NCBI RefSeq assembly: GCF_015234135.1
Contig: NZ_JADGIK010000003.1
Coordinates: 62,001-126,000 of the forward strand
Source: Faecalibacter rhinopitheci
GTDB lineage: Bacteria > Bacteroidota > Bacteroidia > Flavobacteriales > Weeksellaceae
Direction: 5' to 3'
Length of the DNA: 64,000 nt
The notes under the pieces are model-generated. The model was not told the DNA's origin, ran no database searches, and worked only from the letters and a program-made list of their open reading frames with translations. Positions 40,585-49,787 of this stretch are shown here, piece by piece. A program made the position numbers and the translations under genes. Every line of letters starts with the position of its first letter. The first letter of the stretch is position 1.

Positions 40585-41187
40585 ATGGCTTTTGAATTAC
40601 CACAATTACCATATGCATTTGATGCATTAGAACCACACATTGACGCTAAAACAATGGAGATTCACCACGATAAACACCATGCTGCATATACTACAAACTT
40701 AAATGCTGCAATCGAGGGAACTGATTTAGCAGGTGCTACAATCGAAGAAATTTTAGCAAACGGAACTGATAAACCAGCTGTACGTAACAATGGTGGAGGT
40801 TTTTATAACCACAACTTATTCTGGGAAACTTTAGCTCCAAATGCAGGAGGAGAGCCTCAAGGAGAATTAGGAGAAGCAATTACTGCTACTTTTGGATCTT
40901 TTGATGCGTTTAAAGACGAATTTTCTAAAGCTGCTGCAACACGTTTTGGTTCAGGATGGGCTTGGTTAGTTGTTGTTGATGGGAAATTAGTAGTTACTTC
41001 TACTCCAAATCAAGACAATCCGTTAATGCCAGTTGCTGATGTTAAAGGACAACCAATTTTAGGATTAGACGTTTGGGAACATGCTTATTACTTAAACTAC
41101 CAAAACCGTCGTCCTGATTATATCAACGCTTTCTTTAACGTTGTAAACTGGGAAAAAGTTGCTGAATTATACGCTGCAGCTAAATAA
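40585..41187 (+). CDS. sodA: Superoxide dismutase (Fe/Mn family)
   Basis: Cytoplasmic enzyme converting superoxide to peroxide and oxygen. The 200 residues begin [18 protein letters not shown] with metal ligands in [12 protein letters not shown] (His 27 region), [12 protein letters not shown] (His about 76), and [18 protein letters not shown] (Asp and His about 162 and 166). Metal preference (Fe, Mn or either) cannot be settled from the sequence by eye. It is monocistronic, with its own promoter and terminator. The codons used look like those of a highly expressed gene (TTA, GTT, GCT rich). Confidence 0.95.
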
Positions 41188-41213
41188 TTAAAATCTGATT
41201 AACAGAAATAATT

Positions 41214-41248
41214 TAAAAGACTTGCTTGTTTTAAGCAAGTCTTTTTTA
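41214..41248 (+). terminator. Terminator of superoxide dismutase gene
   Basis: Arms AAAAGACTTGCTT and AAGCAAGTCTTTT with short loop and T run, 27 bases after the stop. Confidence 0.82.
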
Positions 41249-41258
41249 ATTTTGGGAT

Positions 41259-41615
41259 ATGGGAATTATTATTTTAGAAAATATAAAAATTTATTCTAAT
41301 CACGGTTGTTTGGACGAAGAAGCACGCATCGGTTCAGATTATTTAGTGGATTTAGAGGCACATGCTGATTTTTCTAAGGCATGTGAGTCAGATGAATTGG
41401 TGGATGCATTAGATTATGTTTCTTTAAATGCAATCGTTAAAGAAGAAGTTGGAATCCGTTCAAAATTATTAGAACATGTATGTCAAAGAATCTTAACTCG
41501 TATAAGTCAGGAACTTACAAATGTAACGTATGCGAAGGTTAAATTATCTAAGCTGAATCCTCCTATTGGTGGGCACGTAGAAAAAGTAAGTATTATTTTA
41601 GAAAAACATTTTTAG
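41259..41615 (+). CDS. folB: Dihydroneopterin aldolase
   Basis: Folate-pathway enzyme converting dihydroneopterin to hydroxymethyldihydropterin. The 118 residues show LENIKIYSNHGCLDEEARIG, ALDYVSLNAIVKEEV, LLEHVCQRI and the catalytic-loop LSKLNPPIGGHVEKVSI. Length is normal for the family. It starts only 11 bases after the sod terminator and ends 52 bases before tRNA-Cys. Confidence 0.92.
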   Translation: MGIIILENIKIYSNHGCLDEEARIGSDYLVDLEAHADFSKACESDELVDALDYVSLNAIVKEEVGIRSKLLEHVCQRILTRISQELTNVTYAKVKLSKLNPPIGGHVEKVSIILEKHF

Positions 41616-41617
41616 GC

Positions 41618-41647
41618 TTTGTTTTTTTAAAATTATTGCTATATTTG
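41618..41647 (+). promoter_or_regulatory. Promoter of tRNA-Cys
   Basis: TTTG (41618-41621), 18-base spacer, TATATTTG (41640-41647), about 20 bases before the tRNA 5' end; close to the Bacteroidota consensus. Confidence 0.7.
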
Positions 41648-41667
41648 CAAACCAAAATGATGGAAAT

Positions 41668-41738
41668 GGTTCCTTGACCGAGCGGTTAGGTAGCGGTCTG
41701 CAAAACCGTCCACAGCGGTTCGAATCCGCTAGGAACCT
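41668..41738 (+). tRNA. tRNA-Cys(GCA); integration target
   Basis: 71-base cloverleaf: acceptor GGTTCCT/AGGAACC, anticodon loop CTGCAAA (anticodon GCA), T-loop GGTTCGAATCC, discriminator T (U). CCA is not encoded. Its last 12 bases are repeated as CGCTAGGAACCTC at 48453-48465, the far end of the integrated element, so the tRNA was restored by the incoming element's att site or left intact on insertion. Confidence 0.96.
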
Positions 41739-41739
41739 C
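41727..41739 (+). repeat. att site, tRNA end (attL)
   Basis: CGCTAGGAACCTC, forming the last 12 bases of tRNA-Cys plus one; direct repeat of 48453-48465. Confidence 0.82.
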
Positions 41740-41742
41740 ATT

Positions 41743-41790
41743 AAAAAACCTCAACTTCTTGAAATATAGATAGTTGAGGTTTTTGTTTTT
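41743..41790 (+). terminator. Element-borne terminator after tRNA-Cys
   Basis: Arms AAAAACCTCAACT and AGTTGAGGTTTTT with a 15-base loop and T run. It lies inside the element and would replace the original chromosomal terminator now stranded at 48475. Confidence 0.75.
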
Positions 41791-41793
41791 TAT

Positions 41794-41817
41794 GTTTGCC
41801 ACACATTTGCCACGCAA
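41794..41817 (+). repeat. 24-bp subterminal direct repeat, left copy
   Basis: Exact direct repeat of 48302-48325. It contains two copies of TTTGCCAC 11 bases apart. The left copy is 55 bases inside attL. Probably an integrase or excisionase arm site (inference). Confidence 0.7.
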
Positions 41818-41833
41818 AATTTTATATAAGTAA

Positions 41834-41858
41834 AAAGGGTGGCAATATACCACCCTTT
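41834..41858 (-). terminator. Terminator of the XRE-ImmA gene
   Basis: Arms AAAGGGTGG and CCACCCTTT with a 7-base loop and A run on the plus strand (T run on minus), just past the minus-strand stop. It also contains GTGGCAA, the reverse complement of part of the subterminal repeat. Confidence 0.75.
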
Positions 41859-41861
41859 ATA

Positions 41862-42968
41862 TTATACCGATAATTTAAGTTTAATCACATTATTTTTAAA
41901 TGAAGAATAATGTTTTATACTAGAGTAGTTATTAAAATAATATTGATCCAATTCAGTTTCTGATAAACCAAAAAGTTCAGAAATATCATTTTTTGTATAT
42001 TCTAATTCTTCTAAATGTATTCGAATAAGTTCTTGAGTTAACTTAGGTTCCGTTAAATTAAATTCATTAGGTTCTTTAACTCTCCAACCGTTATAGTTAA
42101 ATTTAGTTACCCATCTTCGGTGTTGATCAGGTGTAAGCACACCTAAATCTTTGGATTTGTATAATATTGCTTGTGCAGAAACTTTCCAATACCTTTTTAA
42201 ATCGAATAGTTTTTCCGAATTTAGATTAAATAGGTCTCCTTTTATATCTTCGTTAGGCATTAATAGATTTGAGGCAAATTCATTTGCTTCTTTTTCAACA
42301 TCTCGATCTTCTGTTATAATTCCGTATTTAAAATGCATAATTATATGCCCTAATTCATGAGCTATTGTAAAGGATTTTCTTGAATCTGGAATCTTTTTAT
42401 TAATAATCATAATAGGAACTCCATTATTTCCAATTAAGCTTACTCCATCTATTTTAATATCTGTATTAAAATTATGGTATACTATAATAATTCCAAGTTT
42501 TTCAACTAAATTGACAATATCTTTTATAGGTCCTCTGGGTAGATTTAAGAATTCTTTAATTCTTGATGCTAATATTTTAGGGGAATTTTTGAATTCTTCT
42601 AAATTAGAATATGGAATAGAATTTTGAATTTCTATTGAATCCAAAAGTTCATTTATATTAGAATTAATGATATTTATTTCAGCTTCTAATGATTTTAATT
42701 TTGTTTGACTAGTCCCAAGATTTTTTCTAAAATAAAAATGTTTTAATGGTACTAATTCATCATTTTTATAAAAGAATGATTTAGGATAGTTTAATACTTG
42801 TGATAGTTCATCTAAAACTTCGGGTGTTAGATTTGAAATGCCTTTTTCAATTTTTGATAATAATACTTGAGAGGCAGTTTTCATTTTTTTAGAAAGTGCA
42901 GATTGAGATAGTCCTCGACTTTCTCTAGCTAGTTTTACTCTTTCAGTGTTTATAACGTTTTCCATCAT
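41862..42968 (-). CDS. XRE-family HTH plus ImmA/IrrE-type metallopeptidase
   Basis: A 368-residue single-chain protein. N-terminal XRE helix-turn-helix (about 7-65; LARESRGLSQSALSKKMKTA and LSKIEKGISNLTPEVLDEL), then a helical linker and an ImmA/IrrE zinc peptidase domain with HELGH (204-208) in FTIAHELGHIIMHF. In mobile elements such proteins act as repressor-protease switches (ImmA cleaves ImmR in ICEBs1) or as antitoxin/regulators of a neighbour. It follows the 246-aa unknown gene by 93 bases in the same direction and closes the element. A defence or toxin-control role is inference. Confidence 0.85.
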   Translation of the reverse strand: MMENVINTERVKLARESRGLSQSALSKKMKTASQVLLSKIEKGISNLTPEVLDELSQVLNYPKSFFYKNDELVPLKHFYFRKNLGTSQTKLKSLEAEINIINSNINELLDSIEIQNSIPYSNLEEFKNSPKILASRIKEFLNLPRGPIKDIVNLVEKLGIIIVYHNFNTDIKIDGVSLIGNNGVPIMIINKKIPDSRKSFTIAHELGHIIMHFKYGIITEDRDVEKEANEFASNLLMPNEDIKGDLFNLNSEKLFDLKRYWKVSAQAILYKSKDLGVLTPDQHRRWVTKFNYNGWRVKEPNEFNLTEPKLTQELIRIHLEELEYTKNDISELFGLSETELDQYYFNNYSSIKHYSSFKNNVIKLKLSV

Positions 42969-43061
42969 TTTAATAAAATGAATTAAATAAAGTAGGTCAA
43001 ATGACCTACTTAATTATTTTAGCGTAAAGTTAAAAGATGTGTTTGCAGATGATTGTTAATA

Positions 43062-43802
43062 TTACTTAATGTTTCTTCTTTTAATCTTTACATTTTCTTT
43101 AACGTGTAAAATTGAAATTTGATCGTTTAATTCAGAATCTTCTGATCTACGATTAATATCAATAGTATCTGTTTCAAATAAATTCATTGTTGCTTGTGTC
43201 CAATTAACTTCATGTTTGCTAATTAATGAAGTTACAAATGAATTATTACCTTCAGACCCTAAATTAGGACCTATAAATAAATAAGGAATATGCGCTAATT
43301 CTGGAAAAAGCTTTCCCGCATATAACTTATTACTGCTTGGTGTTGGGTATGATTTAGGTTTATTAAGTTGACCATATAGTCTCTTTACGTATAAAACATA
43401 CTTGTTCTTTACAATGAAGAAAACTGAACCACTATTAGTTTTAACTTGAATTTTATTACTGAAATTACTATCAGATCCAATTCGTTTTAAAATTTTACTT
43501 TTAATGGTAGCGTTTAAATCTTGTGAATAATATCCACGTTGAGAATATTTAATATTATCTCTTAAACGACTTTCGTTTACTTCATCAATAGAATCTCTTA
43601 TAATACTATCGAATTCTAAAAGAACATCACCTATTTCTTCTTTGACAGCTTGTTGATTAGCTATATCTTTATATATAACTAAATTTTCTTTGTCAGAAGA
43701 ATCGAAATTTGTATCTTTGTCACCAGATACAAGATTTTTTACTTCTAAAGTTTTATTCAACTGGCGGGTCGAATTATTATCTTTTATAAAATTTTGTCTC
43801 AT
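43062..43802 (-). CDS. Unknown protein, partner of XRE-ImmA (246 aa)
   Basis: I do not firmly recognise this protein. A polar, probably disordered N-terminus (about 1-60) is followed by an alpha/beta part with a hydrophobic beta hairpin SVFFIVKNKYVLYVKRLYG (about 130-148), HIPYLFIGPNLG (about 172-183) and a basic tail KENVKIKRRNIK. It faintly resembles proteins placed beside ImmA genes in other bacteria (the DUF5986 type), but this is weak. Its position upstream of XRE-ImmA in one transcript suggests a regulated effector. No membrane segment or signal peptide is visible. Confidence 0.7.
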   Translation of the reverse strand: MRQNFIKDNNSTRQLNKTLEVKNLVSGDKDTNFDSSDKENLVIYKDIANQQAVKEEIGDVLLEFDSIIRDSIDEVNESRLRDNIKYSQRGYYSQDLNATIKSKILKRIGSDSNFSNKIQVKTNSGSVFFIVKNKYVLYVKRLYGQLNKPKSYPTPSSNKLYAGKLFPELAHIPYLFIGPNLGSEGNNSFVTSLISKHEVNWTQATMNLFETDTIDINRRSEDSELNDQISILHVKENVKIKRRNIK

Positions 43803-43855
43803 ATTTTCTATGTATTTGTATCACCTGCAAATACTTTTTTTTGAAACCACTTGCG

Positions 43856-43863
43856 CAAATATA
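43856..43863 (-). promoter_or_regulatory. -7 element TATATTTG for the 246-aa/XRE-ImmA unit
   Basis: On the minus strand TATATTTG lies 54 bases before the start codon at 43802, followed by GCGCAAG. No good -33 at the right spacing. Confidence 0.45.
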
Positions 43864-44042
43864 CAAAAAATTATAACATTATTTATAACAAATTTGAATT
43901 TTATGTTTTTTTAAATAAGATTTTTTATCTATTATATTGTCAAAAGGTACTCCGTTAGTTGTTTTGGTTTGTTGAGATGTGTTGCGACCTGCTTTTTATA
44001 CACACTTGACACATTCTAAAATCGTGTTATATCGATATTTTG

Positions 44043-44186
44043 TTATTTATAAAGCAGAATATGAAAGTCGTTATCGTTGCTAAATACTATGCTACCACGA
44101 ACTATCCAACCGATTTTTATAAGTTCATTTAATTCTGTTTCAAAATCTTTTAAATTTGAATCTCTTAAAATTTTATATTGTTTCAT
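44043..44186 (-). CDS. 47-aa ORF, DUF1737-like
   Basis: A short minus-strand ORF in a 615-bp gap, starting MKQYKILRDSNLKDFETELN and ending GSIVFSNDNDFHILLYK. The pattern (KYKVL, then L-x3-E-x2-LNE-x3-GW, then a short strand ending in Y) matches the small DUF1737 proteins that occur in many phages and plasmids. Function of that family is unknown. It lies between the helicase and cargo genes of the element. The rest of the gap shows no other coding sequence. Confidence 0.6.
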   Translation of the reverse strand: MKQYKILRDSNLKDFETELNELIKIGWIVRGSIVFSNDNDFHILLYK

Positions 44187-44417
44187 TTTTCTAATTTTTT
44201 ATTGTAGACTTAGTAGATTAAAATCATCACTTATTCTTTATATATATTCTATTTTTATTTTAAAATATTATATAGGTAAATAAGTCTACAAAGTCTACAA
44301 GTTGATATTTGTTAAATTGTTATTCTATTTAATGCAATTACCTAGTAAATTCATTTTAATACTTTTATCAAAAAAATGTCTAAATTTTGAGTTCTTAATA
44401 TGTTGATATAAAGTGTA

Positions 44418-45761
44418 TTAATCGTAAATTGTAAAGGTTGTAAGTCCATTGTATTCACTTTTTTTAATTGTGTAATTTTTGAACTCTGCATATTTTTTTA
44501 TTGGATCAAGTCTTTTATCAAAATCCTTAAGAAAATAACGTTTGTTTAGTTCGCATTTTTCGAGTTTATCAAATAATTCCTTTGTTATATCGCAAACCAC
44601 TTTTTTCTGCTTTAGATCAATATTGTTATATGGTATTAAACCAGATTTTAAAAATGTTTGTAAGCAGTTAGTCATAAAGTTGTAAAACTTATTCCATTCG
44701 AAAGAATCCCAGTCATTAAAGAAGTGATGATTAAACTCTAGAAAGGGTGTGTGATTATCATTGAAATAGTTATTTAGATATATTTCAAACCTTCTACCTT
44801 TATGACTACTTGAATTACCATTTATTTGATAATTAGTTGTAAGTATTATTTTAGGACTTAAAGCAAAGGGTATAATAAAACTTTGTTTGTTCTTTTTTTC
44901 GATTGTTATATCATTAGTAAGAATTGAGAAAAGTTGCTCAAAATCAAACGCTTTTTTTACATCATCAAAAAATATTATTTCTGTTTGATGTGTTACATCT
45001 TGAAAAGCAAATCTATTATTTGTTAGGTCCAAATTTTTTCCGTTTTGAGTAATCAGATTAACCATTTTACTTATGCCTTGAACAATCAAACCTTTTCCAG
45101 TTCTACCATTTGCATTATTTTCTGATTCTGTATTCTCATCACTTAAAATAATGGCTTTATTTGAACTAGGAATTTTATATTTATGTATTGCAAATCCTAT
45201 TGATGATAAAACAGAAAGTTTATGTTTATCATCATTAGTAACTTTATTAAGGAATTTTTCAAAAACTGAAATTTCATTATTTTCTGTGTAATCACATTCA
45301 ATAATAGAATCTAACCAGATGAAATTATCTTTTATGTGATTATAATCAATTAACTCCTTTTTGTTTTCTGTAACTTTTAGAATTCCATTATTAAAAAGTA
45401 TGTAGCCAGTCTTTAAATCATCTCTAAGAGGTGTTATATTAGATTGTTTTAATGATCCTAATAAAGCTTTTTTAGTCATTAATAATGTTTCGCCTTGACG
45501 CATAAATTCATTATCTAAATCGCTTATTTTTAAACTTTGAATATGCTTTAAACAATAATTAAAGACTTGTTGGGGATTTAATTCAATGGCTATATTTTCA
45601 TATATCTGAATTAGTTTATCGTTGTATAAACAGAATCCATTTAATTCTAAAAATTGTTTTAATTCAGATGGATTAATTATAAATTTCGATTTCGATTTTT
45701 TCCAAAAAGTTAAAGCTTTAACCTTTTGAAATTCTTTATTTAAACTAGATATACTTTTCAT
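44418..45761 (-). CDS. SF3 helicase/primase-like replication protein
   Basis: A 447-residue protein with superfamily 3 helicase motifs: Walker A GRTGKG (219-224), Walker B EIIFFDDV (261-268), motif C SPKIILTTNYQ (302-312) and a following KGRRFEI arginine finger. The N-terminal 180 residues resemble the accessory part of phage/plasmid primase-helicases (DUF5906-type), but I cannot see classical primase catalytic residues. It probably starts or drives replication of the excised element. It follows the AlpA-like gene by 9 bases and is the central replication gene of the island. Confidence 0.83.
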   Translation of the reverse strand: MKSISSLNKEFQKVKALTFWKKSKSKFIINPSELKQFLELNGFCLYNDKLIQIYENIAIELNPQQVFNYCLKHIQSLKISDLDNEFMRQGETLLMTKKALLGSLKQSNITPLRDDLKTGYILFNNGILKVTENKKELIDYNHIKDNFIWLDSIIECDYTENNEISVFEKFLNKVTNDDKHKLSVLSSIGFAIHKYKIPSSNKAIILSDENTESENNANGRTGKGLIVQGISKMVNLITQNGKNLDLTNNRFAFQDVTHQTEIIFFDDVKKAFDFEQLFSILTNDITIEKKNKQSFIIPFALSPKIILTTNYQINGNSSSHKGRRFEIYLNNYFNDNHTPFLEFNHHFFNDWDSFEWNKFYNFMTNCLQTFLKSGLIPYNNIDLKQKKVVCDITKELFDKLEKCELNKRYFLKDFDKRLDPIKKYAEFKNYTIKKSEYNGLTTFTIYD

Positions 45762-45770
45762 AATCTAGTA

Positions 45771-46055
45771 TTATAAAAGTTTATTATTTTCTAGGTATTG
45801 ATCTATTTCAGATCTTTTATAATAAACTCTGTTCCCTAATCCGTATGCAGTTAATAGATTAGTTTTTGTCCATCTATGTAATGTAGATAGATCTACTTTT
45901 AGAAGTTTAGCAGTTTCAGTTCTTGAAAGATATTCAACTGGTTTTTTAGGTTGAAATTCTTCTGCTAATTGCTTTTTTAATTCTGGGATTAATGATTGTT
46001 TTAAATCATCAATAAAATCTTTAGGATTTAATCCTACAAAATGTAAATGTTGCAT
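45771..46055 (-). CDS. AlpA/excisionase-like HTH protein (94 aa)
   Basis: A 94-residue protein with a MerR/HTH_17-type DNA-binding domain at about 42-90: YLSRTETAKLLKVDLSTLHR followed by WTKTNLLTAYGLGNRVYYKR and SEIDQYL. This is the typical layout of Bacteroidota element excisionases and AlpA-like activators. The N-terminal 40 residues form a short helix. It precedes the SF3 helicase gene by 9 bases. Palindromes in its 108-bp upstream gap may be its own operators. Confidence 0.8.
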   Translation of the reverse strand: MQHLHFVGLNPKDFIDDLKQSLIPELKKQLAEEFQPKKPVEYLSRTETAKLLKVDLSTLHRWTKTNLLTAYGLGNRVYYKRSEIDQYLENNKLL

Positions 46056-46104
46056 ATAATTATGTTTAAATTTCTATGCAACAAAGTTTGTTTGTGAAAC
46101 TTAC

Positions 46105-46147
46105 TAGTTGGTAACTACTTTACCTACTGGATTGTGTTAAATAACAC
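46105..46147 (-). promoter_or_regulatory. Operator-like palindromes upstream of the AlpA-like gene
   Basis: TAGTTGGTAACTA (46105-46117, 5-bp arms, 3-base centre) and GTGTTAAATAACAC (46134-46147, 6-bp arms, 2-base centre) lie in the short gap before the HTH gene. They may bind the AlpA-like or XRE protein; inference. Confidence 0.35.
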
Positions 46148-46163
46148 TAAATAAAATCTATTT

Positions 46164-46973
46164 CTATAATCTATCTAGTTTATTTTCATCAAAATGGTCA
46201 TTTCGTAATTGTTCACGTTTTATCTTATAATTAAAAAGTTTTTCAATTAAAGCTTTGTATGGTTTTACAGAATGACGTTTTAAATATTCATCTTTTTCCT
46301 TAAAATATAAGTATATGTTAGTGAACTTTAGATCATCATTTTTTTCATCATATCGATCATTAAGTTCTACGAGTTTATTTAAAAAACTTTCCATATCTTT
46401 TTTATTAATAAGTATTCTATTTGCTAAGTATTCTACTTCTGAACTATATATATTTTTAGAGAAGGTTAAATTATTTCCGTATTTCCACTCTTTAATTAAT
46501 TCATTATAATATTCATTTTCAATGTTATGTGTTGTTATTGATTTGTCAATAGGAAAAAGATTTTCTATTTTTTTAATTCCTAAATCTTTTCCTACTTGAT
46601 TATAAAAAAAGTTTAATTCATTCTGTTTTTCTGCTTGAATATTGTATGTATTTTCTGTAAAGGATCTTTTTAGTTCGTAGTAGAAGGAAATGAATTTTAA
46701 ACCTATTTTATTTAAACTTATTCCTTGATCAGATTGTTGATTAAAATCAAAACTTAAAATATCATAAATACCTTTTTTGTATTTTTCTATTAAATCAAAT
46801 CTATATTGATTTTTATCAATTAGTTTGATCTTATTTTTTTCTAGTTCAATATAATGAGATTGTTCTCCTAAAAATTCGATTTTATTTTCAATACTTAAAA
46901 TGTATAAATGTTCATTTCTATACTTTTCAAGATCAGAATTTAGTTGAAGTATTGATTCGATTTTAGTATTCAT
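46164..46973 (-). CDS. Unknown element protein next to integrase (269 aa)
   Basis: I do not recognise this protein. It is Lys/Glu/Asn-rich and mostly helical, with likely coiled-coil stretches (about 10-60 and 190-260), no cysteine and no membrane segment. It starts one base after the integrase stop, so the two are cotranscribed and possibly coupled. Similar position next to a phage_int_SAM_5 integrase is common in flavobacterial islands. A part in integration/excision or in replication is possible; no motif supports either. Confidence 0.65.
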   Translation of the reverse strand: MNTKIESILQLNSDLEKYRNEHLYILSIENKIEFLGEQSHYIELEKNKIKLIDKNQYRFDLIEKYKKGIYDILSFDFNQQSDQGISLNKIGLKFISFYYELKRSFTENTYNIQAEKQNELNFFYNQVGKDLGIKKIENLFPIDKSITTHNIENEYYNELIKEWKYGNNLTFSKNIYSSEVEYLANRILINKKDMESFLNKLVELNDRYDEKNDDLKFTNIYLYFKEKDEYLKRHSVKPYKALIEKLFNYKIKREQLRNDHFDENKLDRL

Positions 46974-46974
46974 A

Positions 46975-48270
46975 TTAAGCTAGTTTTTGTTTTTCGTTTT
47001 CTATTTGTGCGAAAGTTTCGGCTGTGTCCATTGCATAGTCAGATGAAGTTTTACCGATATATTCTAAAAATACTCTTTCTGTTTTGTGTCCAGTTATAGC
47101 CATTAATAATGGTGTCGGAAATCTTTTATCTGCATAGAAATTAGTAGCAAATGACCTTCTACAAACGTGTGATGTTATTAAATTGTGTTTTTCTGTTTCT
47201 ACTATTTCATTTCTACCTAATTCATCATTAAATACTTTTCCTTTTACAATTGTATTTATTTCACATATTCCAGCTACTTCTTTTAAATAACGATTAAATA
47301 AAGTAGCGTTAGCACTTGCATTTGTAGAAAATAGAGGTGGAAATTCTCCATTATATTTTTTAAGAATTTTCTTTACTTCTGAATGAATTGGTATTGATAC
47401 ATTTTGTCCAGTTTTTTCTTGTTTTAATTCAATAAATTCAAACTCTTGACCTTGTGCATTGATTTTTTTATAAATCATTGATTTGTTCATTTTCATTAAA
47501 TCGCCAACTCTTTGACCTAGAAAACAACCAATAATTAACCAGTCTTTAGCTATTGCATTATTTGAGCCTATGATATGAGTTTTTTTGATTTGTTCAATTT
47601 CTTCAAATGATAGATAAATCTTAACATCAGATTTAACTTCTGTTTTAATTCCATCTACTTGATGGCTAATTTCAAAACCATTGAATCGAGCATCTCTAAG
47701 AATCGTTTTAAGGTTTTTAAGAGTTCTATTTGCAGTTGTTTCCATTAGCTTACCTTCTGCCATTAAATAGAATCTAAATTTGTTAAATAGCTTTTGATCA
47801 AAGTCTTTTAATAAGTATTTTACTTTGTTCTGCTTTTCAAATGATTCAATCTTAGTTAAGAGTGTTTTAAACTTTTGATTTGTAGTAGGTTTAAAATCTG
47901 GATTTAACTTTCTGTTTTCAATAAAGTCATTAATGTAGTTTGTTAGAAAATTTAAATCAATAGTTTCATCTTTTCGGTTAAAAAAGTTATTGATTTTTAA
48001 CTCTAACCATTCTTTATTAAATACGATTCCTTTTTCAAAGTCTAAGTTATATTCTTTAAGAATATGAGTTTTTAAATCTAATAGTTGAGTTTTTAAGTTT
48101 TTTGTAATTACGTTTTTATCTGTAATCTTTTCAATTTTACTATTCCAGTATTGAGCATCTATTATTAATCCAGTTTTTACTTCTGGTCTTATATCACGAT
48201 TAATATTGAATTGAATAAGAATATTTGATGAATTTGATTTAGATCTAATTCTATAAGAAACTTTAGCCAT
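46975..48270 (-). CDS. Tyrosine site-specific recombinase (integrase)
   Basis: A 431-residue integrase of the Bacteroidota type. An arm-binding N-terminal domain (about 1-95) starts MAKVSYRIRSKSNSSNILIQ, then a SAM-like core-binding domain (about 105-205), then the catalytic domain with Arg in GCFLGQRVGDLMK (R254), HVCRR (H368, R371), TGHKTERV (H395) and nucleophile Tyr in LEYIGK (Y404). All catalytic residues are present, so it looks functional. The gene reads inward from attR, 183 bases from it, and would catalyse tRNA-Cys integration. Confidence 0.93.
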   Translation of the reverse strand: MAKVSYRIRSKSNSSNILIQFNINRDIRPEVKTGLIIDAQYWNSKIEKITDKNVITKNLKTQLLDLKTHILKEYNLDFEKGIVFNKEWLELKINNFFNRKDETIDLNFLTNYINDFIENRKLNPDFKPTTNQKFKTLLTKIESFEKQNKVKYLLKDFDQKLFNKFRFYLMAEGKLMETTANRTLKNLKTILRDARFNGFEISHQVDGIKTEVKSDVKIYLSFEEIEQIKKTHIIGSNNAIAKDWLIIGCFLGQRVGDLMKMNKSMIYKKINAQGQEFEFIELKQEKTGQNVSIPIHSEVKKILKKYNGEFPPLFSTNASANATLFNRYLKEVAGICEINTIVKGKVFNDELGRNEIVETEKHNLITSHVCRRSFATNFYADKRFPTPLLMAITGHKTERVFLEYIGKTSSDYAMDTAETFAQIENEKQKLA

Positions 48271-48301
48271 AAATAATACATTTTAATTGTGGTTAAAAGT
48301 G

Positions 48302-48325
48302 GTTTGCCACACATTTGCCACGCAA
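48302..48325 (+). repeat. 24-bp subterminal direct repeat, right copy
   Basis: Exact copy of 41794-41817 in the same orientation, with two TTTGCCAC units; it lies 32 bases upstream of the integrase start and 127 bases from attR. Confidence 0.7.
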
Positions 48326-48452
48326 TATAAGATTAAATAAAATATTATACTAGTAAAAATATTTTTACTAACCCTTTGGTGTAGTGGCTTTTGTTGTGTT
48401 TTTAATGATTTTATGTTAATGTAAAATAGGTGTGAATTGTATTGTTTTGGTT

Positions 48453-48465
48453 CGCTAGGAACCTC
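48453..48465 (+). repeat. att site, distal end (attR)
   Basis: CGCTAGGAACCTC, identical to the tRNA-Cys 3' end. It is preceded by GGTTCG, a shortened remnant of the T-loop, so similarity extends with a 6-base gap. Confidence 0.82.
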
Positions 48466-48474
48466 CAAATTTTT

Positions 48475-48509
48475 AAAACCTCTAATCTTTAGATTAGAGG
48501 TTTTTTTTA
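48475..48509 (+). terminator. Stranded terminator after attR
   Basis: Arms AAAACCTCTAATCT and AGATTAGAGGTTTT, followed by T run; most likely the terminator that followed tRNA-Cys before the insertion. Confidence 0.75.
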
Positions 48510-48722
48510 TGTACTATATTTTTGTAATTCTTTCTTTTCTCGTATCTAAAATGTATATGTTAGATTAAAATTTCTGTTTTTAATGTATATATATTCATTG
48601 ATAGCGATATTTTATACTTTTATTAAAATAATTTTCTATTAACTTTTCTTTAAAATTATATCTTTACTATTCATTAAGATTTATTTACATAATAGTATAA
48701 ATCTAATAGACATACACTACAC

Positions 48723-49787
48723 ATGAATAAAAAGAGAATATTTATAATTATAATTTCACTTGCAGTTTTGGTGGGATTAATTATATATCGAATTAACGCC
48801 AATCAAAGTAAGGATGAAAAGCCAACCAAAGGAGCAGGCCCATCTAAAGAGATATCTGTAGAAGGAAAAATAATTAAAAAACAATATTTTTCAGATTTCT
48901 TAACTTTATCAGGATCGATGGAGGCAAATGAACAAATCGATTTACAGAGTGAAGTTTCCGGTATTATAGAATCTATAAATTTTGATGAAGGGAAATATGT
49001 GTCTAGAGGACAAATTTTGATTCGATTAAATGATGTAGAGCTAAGAGCGCAGTTGGCGCAAGCTAAAACGAGAAATACTTTAGCTTCAGAAAACCAAAGA
49101 AGAGCAAAATTACTTTTAGAAAAAGAAGCGATAAGCCAAGAAGAATTTGATATAGCAACAGCTGATTATAGAACTTCTCAATCACAAATTCAAATTATAG
49201 AAGCTCAGTTAAGTAAAACGGTTATTAGAGCACCATTTTCTGGTAAGGTAGGTTTGCGCAATGTTTCGAAAGGAAGTTATATTACTCCATCTACTATTAT
49301 TGCAAAATTAGTTAATACAGATCAGATTAAAGTTACTTTTTCTATACCAGAGAAATATGCTCATATGGTAAAGGTTAATAATGTGATTAAATTTAATGTA
49401 CAAGGAAATCCGAATGATTTTAATGCGCGTGTATATGCAACAGAGCCTGTTGTAGAAACAGCCACAAGAACTTTATTAGTAAAAGCTATTACAACTAATA
49501 ATTCTAATCAATTAATACCAGGAACATTTGCAGATATTGTTTTTCCATTAGAATCTACTAATGATGCACTTTTGGTACCTGCCGAGGCTTTAATTCCGAT
49601 TCAGAATGGGAAAAAGATATTTGTATATAAATCTGGTAAAGCAAAAGAAGTAATTGTAGAAATAGGATCGCGTACAAAAGATGATATACAAATAACTTCA
49701 GGTATATCGGATGGTGATACCATCTTAACAACTGGTGTAATGACATTAAAAAATGATTCACCTGTTAAAGTGGTTTTAAGAAAATAA
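48723..49787 (+). CDS. RND efflux membrane fusion protein
   Basis: Periplasmic adaptor linking the RND pump to TolC. The 354 residues have one N-terminal membrane segment (about 5-23), a biotinyl-lipoyl half-motif (GSMEANEQIDLQSEVSGIIE, about 62-81), a helical hairpin with RAKLLLEKEAISQEEFD, the second lipoyl half (VIRAPFSGKVGLRNVSKGSY) and the beta-barrel and MP domains. It is the first gene of a three-gene pump operon, separated from the pump gene by 4 bases. No regulator gene is attached. Confidence 0.92.
   Translation: MNKKRIFIIIISLAVLVGLIIYRINANQSKDEKPTKGAGPSKEISVEGKIIKKQYFSDFLTLSGSMEANEQIDLQSEVSGIIESINFDEGKYVSRGQILIRLNDVELRAQLAQAKTRNTLASENQRRAKLLLEKEAISQEEFDIATADYRTSQSQIQIIEAQLSKTVIRAPFSGKVGLRNVSKGSYITPSTIIAKLVNTDQIKVTFSIPEKYAHMVKVNNVIKFNVQGNPNDFNARVYATEPVVETATRTLLVKAITTNNSNQLIPGTFADIVFPLESTNDALLVPAEALIPIQNGKKIFVYKSGKAKEVIVEIGSRTKDDIQITSGISDGDTILTTGVMTLKNDSPVKVVLRK

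Follow-up and report, generated by a model that had tools for sequence, protein, structure and literature searches.

Structure of the island and its insertion site

The genome of Faecalibacter rhinopitheci carries a 6,726-bp island (measured core to core) at the 3' end of a tRNA-Cys gene, within the 64,000-nucleotide stretch analysed here (contig NZ_JADGIK010000003.1, positions 62,001 to 126,000), which as a whole is referred to below as the window. Seven open reading frames (ORFs), all on the - strand, were assigned to the island, shorter overlapping frames being left out of the scans. ORF calling and domain searches confirmed the gene order proposed in an initial annotation of this DNA (integrase, unknown, AlpA-like helix-turn-helix [HTH] protein, SF3, tiny ORF and two-gene cargo), which can now be read as tyrosine integrase, 269-aa ORF, AlpA-like HTH, SF3 helicase, 47-aa ORF, 246-aa ORF and HTH-ImmA protease (Table 1). 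We place the probability at roughly 0.6 that this is an integrative island with a RosmerTA-type toxin-antitoxin cargo and complementary arms flanking the toxin gene, working as in the scheme set out below.

Table 1 Coordinates of the features of the island and its insertion site (positions in the window)
Feature	Position	Strand	Basis
tRNA-Cys (GCA), insertion site	41668..41739	+	ARAGORN; Rfam tRNA
attL core, final 13 nt of tRNA-Cys	41727-41739	+	exact repeat, empty sites in congeners
Left 27-nt direct repeat, two tandem ~11-bp units (units read by eye)	41794..41820	+	repeat search
RmrA-type antitoxin, HTH + ImmA/IrrE (M78) protease, 368 aa, HExxH present	41862..42968	-	PADLOC RmrA 3.3e-58; Peptidase_M78 1.3e-17; HTH_3; conserved residues
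22-bp palindrome in the toxin-rmrA gap; operator or hairpin candidate	42990..43011	.	palindrome scan
Post-stop arm a2, complementary to a1	43032..43053	-	complementarity scoring, fold
Putative RmrT-type toxin, 246 aa	43062..43802	-	position beside RmrA; homologues beside RmrA in G176, G262
Leader arm a1 of proposed pan-handle	43820..43841	-	complementarity scoring, fold
TATATTTG, TAnnTTTG-type promoter element of toxin-antitoxin operon (putative)	43857..43864	-	sequence match to assumed consensus
47-aa ORF, perhaps not a gene	44043..44186	-	weak DUF1737-like match, Pfam E 0.0045, below cut-off
Three of the four window copies of AAGTCTACA (two in tandem, the third inverted)	44203..44299	.	word count vs shuffles
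SF3 helicase, 447 aa, helicase half only	44418..45761	-	phrog_28855 8e-59; conserved Walker A, B, TTN, Arg positions (alignment)
AlpA/excisionase-like HTH, 94 aa	45771..46055	-	HTH_17 8.6e-13; TIGR01764 above cut-off; phrog_66
269-aa ORF, no assigned function	46164..46973	-	no curated cut-off passed (Pfam, PADLOC, PHROG, NCBIfam)
Tyrosine integrase, 431 aa	46975..48270	-	Phage_int_SAM_5 2e-8; phrog_216 1e-18
Right copy of 27-nt repeat, 96% identical	48302..48328	+	repeat search
attR core CGCTAGGAACCTC	48453..48465	+	exact repeat, empty sites in congeners

The borders are defined by the 13-bp core CGCTAGGAACCTC, of which the whole window holds two exact copies on the + strand (attL and attR) and none on the - strand. 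When the joined flanks of the island were used as a query, matches crossed the junction in the congeners G073 (526 nt, 89.2%) and G021 (525 nt, 89.0%), with a weaker, gapped junction match in G121 (540 nt, 83.7%). Because this query runs through the junction, G073 and G021, and more weakly G121, carry the tRNA-Cys site without the element; to the right of the core the flank match extends over only 42-58 nt, mainly the tRNA terminator, and the congener stretches fetched gave no match to the gene that follows the island in the window. The exact core pair and the empty congener sites thus bear out the earlier description of a 6.7 kb element at the tRNA-Cys 3' end with a 13-bp att repeat at both ends, and the empty sites show that the island was placed by its own tyrosine integrase, the core keeping tRNA-Cys whole. 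The tRNA-Cys locus is present in all 14 genus genomes searched, with both island ends at this site in the window, in G099 and in G104 (where the ends are split over two contigs). The left end in G061 and G113 resembles that of the island, and no second core was found in these two genomes within the 13-14 kb fetched downstream. G+C content is ~21-28% inside the island and 28-36% in most flanking windows, a few being lower.

Copies of a 27-nt direct repeat sit just inside each end of the island, and the G099 island has AGTCCGACATTAGTCCGA at both of its ends, a different sequence of the same build. These end repeats are likely to be integrase arm sites. A terminator-like stem brought by the island directly follows tRNA-Cys (41740-41790; seen by eye, its loop being too long for the stem scan), and comparable stems were seen by eye beside tRNA-Cys in G099, G104, G061 and G113. 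The stem scan listed a further stem after attR (48475-48504). In an Rfam scan of 41000-49000, the tRNA alone passed its threshold among six matches with E of at most 1.

A RosmerTA-type pair as cargo

The cargo had been described simply as two genes; that count stands, and the pair can now be named as an RmrA-type antitoxin and a putative toxin partner, likely forming an anti-phage system of the RosmerTA type. In the part of the literature source available, different toxins are described as pairing with the ImmA-protease antitoxin RmrA, and anti-phage activity is reported for a RosmerTA from a Gordonia phage (PMC10440598). The island pair shares with RosmerTA (RmrT-RmrA) an antitoxin combining HTH and ImmA-protease domains and an adjacent putative toxin; it differs in that the toxin is unmatched in PADLOC and Pfam and in that complementary arms flank the toxin ORF.

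Homologues of the 246-aa protein (45-50% identity) adjoin RmrA in G176 and G262. The protein has no match in Pfam, PHROG, NCBIfam or PADLOC, including any toxin model, and no relative in the phage and plasmid collections or in a viral-contig scan that reaches close relatives only. Searching the PDB with its predicted fold (mean pLDDT 64) brought up nothing at E 0.001 or below, and the weak matches, several nucleases among them (best of all E 0.026), were not used. In G176, the toxin and RmrA genes lie in an island-like stretch next to tRNA-Gln (13-nt tRNA-end copy at L090:13455) that also holds an integrase, AlpA and, in between, a different 303-aa gene, putatively for replication. The same toxin-RmrA pair stands there beside a different putative replication gene. 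The putative replication genes in L090, L092 and L093 have no Pfam match above cut-off.

Complementary arms around the toxin gene

Comparison of the cargo with its relatives reveals that the toxin leader is complementary to the stretch following the toxin stop codon, in a sequence that varies from operon to operon. Among 20 RosmerTA operons that have the toxin gene in front and a spacer no shorter than 35 nt, 15 reach a complementarity score of at least 26. As background we used 91 adjacent same-strand gene pairs (spacers 35-100 nt), two of which were RosmerTA operons and were removed; among the 89 others, four reach 26, two reach 29 and none reaches 35. No score above 22 occurs among the 45 distinct operons whose spacers are shorter or whose genes overlap.

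The first operon set derives from 46 RmrA loci, 16 with an upstream ORF of at least 90 aa; L109 (136-aa upstream gene), L137 (overlapping genes) and L154 (broken frame) were dropped, leaving 13, of which L139 (score 22, counted as lacking arms) was kept in the scoring and left out of the folds. In these 13 operons, own arms beat all between-group swaps in 12, L115 failing, with own scores of 21-47 against a mean of 18.6 and a maximum of 26 over 148 swaps; direct-orientation matches remain at 14-20 throughout. The number of shuffles (300 per operon) that reach the own score is 0 in seven operons, 1-11 in four, 21 in L115 and 38 in L139. When the own pair was ranked against other windows taken from its operon, it came first in 10 of 13, the exceptions being the operon studied here (1/34), L113 (1/56) and L139 (4/27). 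Seven later operons, again with spacers of at least 35 nt, were each compared with 56 swaps: L163, L184, L218 and L221 beat them all, and the own score is reached by one swap in L235, three in L240 and 33 in L173. L164-L168 repeat earlier operons and were not counted as new, and the rmrA start chosen by script is not ATG in L111, L112 and L114, where spacers shift by a few nt.

Throughout the 15 arm-bearing operons, 10-30 nt separate the end of the leader arm (a1) from the start codon, and the post-stop arm (a2) follows the stop codon at a distance of 6-18 nt. Between L113 and L114, whose toxins are 65% identical, three paired changes were identified by eye, and relative to L114 (toxins 77% identical) each arm of L163 is short of one base. 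The arms keep their position and covary across operons. In the window, an A-rich outer part of a1 lengthens the arm. Ten of the 15 arm-bearing operons have a flagged TAnnTTTG element, presumably the promoter consensus; a consensus scan yielded 60 sites against 51.6 expected and was not used. L184, L218 and L221 are viral contigs, in which toxin-first RosmerTA operons carry complementary arms too.

Pairing in RNA or binding sites in DNA

We infer that the arms pair in the mRNA and so restrain the toxin. It is reasonably probable, in our view, that a Bacteroidota branch of RosmerTA controls its toxin via a covarying mRNA pan-handle in which the leader pairs with the post-stop stretch, sealing off the toxin ORF from that of the antitoxin: a hok- or aapA-like device combined with a protease antitoxin. 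In predicted full transcripts with assumed start sites, a1 and a2 pair so as to enclose the toxin ORF in such a pan-handle: minimum free energy structures contain the helix in all 15 arm-bearing operons (18 of 22 a1 positions being paired in the window's operon) and lack it in the four others folded. The closed form may hold back toxin translation by keeping the toxin start region inaccessible, as in hok or aapA, or the pan-handle may be a processing stem, cut to free the antitoxin message from the toxin message. Long-distance 5'-3' pairing around the toxin ORF is described for the type I toxin mRNAs of hok/Sok and aapA/IsoA in the available part of the source (PMC6733600). Such pairing, predicted here, is what the island operon has in common with those systems, whereas here a protein serves as antitoxin, its gene lying downstream on the strand of the toxin gene and being preceded by the second arm. 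No report of complementary arms around a RosmerTA toxin ORF was found in the open-licence literature searched.

Several observations weigh against this interpretation or against the wider scheme. Arms were not found in five of the 20 operons (L115, L139, L173, L235, L240), and the window's operon, taken by itself, gives a moderate complementarity signal, its score being reached by 5/300 shuffles, 1/34 other windows and 2/89 background pairs. The folds described above had no shuffle control. Differences between arms comprise 7 G.U, 8 A.C and 25 others, revealing no G.U preference. The 246-aa toxin group matches the toxins of two other RosmerTA groups at hhalign E 0.018 and 0.17, which does not make them clearly homologous (those two groups match each other at 7e-5). 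Finally, no primase domain was found in Pfam and PHROG scans of the seven island ORFs.

The main rival holds that a1 and a2 are a pair of DNA sites, in opposite orientation, to which RmrA binds: the first downstream of the toxin promoter, the second ahead of rmrA. RmrA does have an HTH and weakly resembles a repressor/antitoxin model, spr1629, at 133.9 bits where the cut-off is 335, and this alternative stands because arm differences show no excess of G.U. However, the arms are non-palindromic and inverted relative to each other, direct-orientation matches stay low, and their positions before the start codon and after the stop codon lie away from the promoter; moreover, the palindrome between toxin and rmrA (Table 1) and the leader hairpins make better operator candidates. 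We regard DNA operators as a rather unlikely explanation of the arms.

Replication and integration modules

The SF3 protein was initially annotated as helicase-primase-like, of which the SF3 helicase is upheld and the primase half is not: the match covers just positions 322-712 of the 804 of PHROG 28855. SF3 primase-helicases of phages, represented by phrog_28855 and by a 774-aa viral-contig relative (L002) with an extra N-terminal half, share the helicase domain and its motifs with the island protein, which in contrast is confined to the helicase half and adjoins AlpA rather than a fused N-terminal half.

SF3 matches at E 1e-10 occur in 17 of 296 family genomes, including that of the window. 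Besides the window there are seven short-form loci (open frames of 494-539 aa), and all seven show an AlpA-like match immediately upstream of SF3, so that the AlpA-SF3 order does recur in the family. Nine longer SF3 loci (620-1038 aa) have no AlpA match at E 1e-4, and L124, the sole long-form locus whose ORFs were read, lies in a prophage. Further SF3 relatives were found in five phage records and three plasmid records, and a scan of genome contigs with SF3 identified three loci (22-31% identity).

AAGTCTACA, a word picked after being seen, occurs four times in the window, a number reached in 0/100 shuffles. Three of the copies cluster in the AT-rich gap that follows the SF3 gene and are candidate origin iterons. 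We suggest that the SF3 helicase and an origin near 44203-44299 probably help to replicate the excised circle, with primase from elsewhere, that excision probably depends on regulation by the AlpA-like protein, and, from RmrA homology, that the RosmerTA-type pair likely favours the island via defence or addiction.

Four of the short-form loci (L083:7569-14639, L084, L085 and L086) combine HTH_17/AlpA and SF3 with an integrase, a 3'-5' exonuclease-like gene and a gene for a family-A DNA polymerase (Pfam 3e-129 in L083; tblastn in all four); they adjoin tRNA-Met, save that no tRNA-Met was called beside L084. These seem to be islands encoding their own DNA polymerase. Exact tRNA-end repeats of at least 11 nt were not found for L080-L083, L085 and L086, leaving island borders there undefined.

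In the integrase, R, H-x-x-R, H and Y, which we take to be the catalytic pattern, are visible by eye, and the Pfam match to Phage_integrase (3.2e-5) falls slightly short of the cut-off. Remote relatives occur in 33 phage records, among them Cellulophaga and Porphyromonas phages, with 25.6-29.6% identity in the ten best of the 33, and no relative was confirmed in viral contigs by a scan reaching close relatives only. Among the 296 family genomes, the window's own was the only one in which the 269-aa ORF was found, and its predicted fold alone (mean pLDDT 45) was useless. Genes of ~300 aa upstream of AlpA in related loci gave no match above cut-off (three scanned) and align poorly.

The G099 island occupies the same tRNA-Cys with the same 13-bp core, and its integrase is 38% identical to that of the window. 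It spans 11.85 kb (L067:658-12521, ends also in L068 and L069), carries a type III restriction-modification system and a DrmD-like gene, and has no SF3 match. Integrase islands also occur in the genus at tRNA-Leu (L093:4082-10507 and L091), with 14- and 15-nt tRNA-end copies; L093 holds int, AlpA and a 469-aa gene.

Route of transfer and relationship to phage satellites

One reading is that the island is moved by conjugation of a resident element, through a relaxase acting in trans or chromosomal DNA transfer, or that it is an immobile remnant. Three MobA/VirD2-type relaxases are encoded on other contigs of the host genome, and a congener relaxase (L101) shares a 17.7-kb contig with a relative of the integrase. 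Against this, no relaxase was found in the seven ORFs by Pfam, as would be needed for an integrative and mobilisable element in its own right, nor was an oriT recognised, and the integrase looks intact. We hold this reading tentatively, at somewhat less than even odds. The whole element has no match in plasmids.

The initial annotation had proposed a satellite resembling a phage-inducible chromosomal island (PICI). PICIs integrate at tRNA ends and are small, with an integrase, an AlpA-like regulator, a replication helicase and no relaxase. All of these are shared by the island, where integrase and att site lie at a defined chromosomal locus and the AlpA-type regulator is recognised by sequence match, its function being predicted; the earlier remark on missing relaxase and capsid genes is also borne out, neither having a match among the seven ORFs. 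What sets the island apart from PICIs is the helicase without its primase half, the lack of recognised packaging or interference genes, the location of all assigned genes on one strand, and the hypothetical status of any helper phage. We reject PICI classification because two defining features are wanting, namely a primase-replication (pri-rep) module and genes for packaging redirection or helper interference; no packaging, capsid or interference gene was matched by Pfam or PHROG in the seven ORFs, where unmatched proteins could still serve. The description as a compact integrase-AlpA-SF3 island at a tRNA 3' end therefore holds, and its assignment to PICIs does not.

AlpA was found within 800 nt upstream of an SF3 relative in none of 88 viral loci (64 long, 13 short and 11 cut by the contig end), some of these contigs ending close to the SF3 gene. 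The terminase phrog_2, the sole terminase family tried, was not found in the host genome, so that a prophage is possible; the control search was positive in 11 of 14 genomes. That the island is a PICI-like satellite packaged by a helper phage, with AlpA and SF3 as its induction and replication module, is thus improbable: gene order, tRNA 3' end, small size, missing relaxase, the many SF3 relatives in viral contigs and the long-form relative in a prophage agree with it, but the scans for packaging, capsid, interference and primase functions, the viral loci and the terminase search do not. Nothing found shows travel in phage particles, and a satellite is one possibility among several.

Implications

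The island is a clear Bacteroidota case of small, tRNA-targeted islands assembled from exchangeable modules for integration, replication and defence; it also illustrates that gene order alone is poor ground for calling such islands satellites. If the arms act in RNA, this would be a protein toxin-antitoxin system that restrains its toxin through the folding of its message, and an RNA pan-handle, if true, would hint at the way in which a phage that interferes with RNA decay or translation sets the toxin free.

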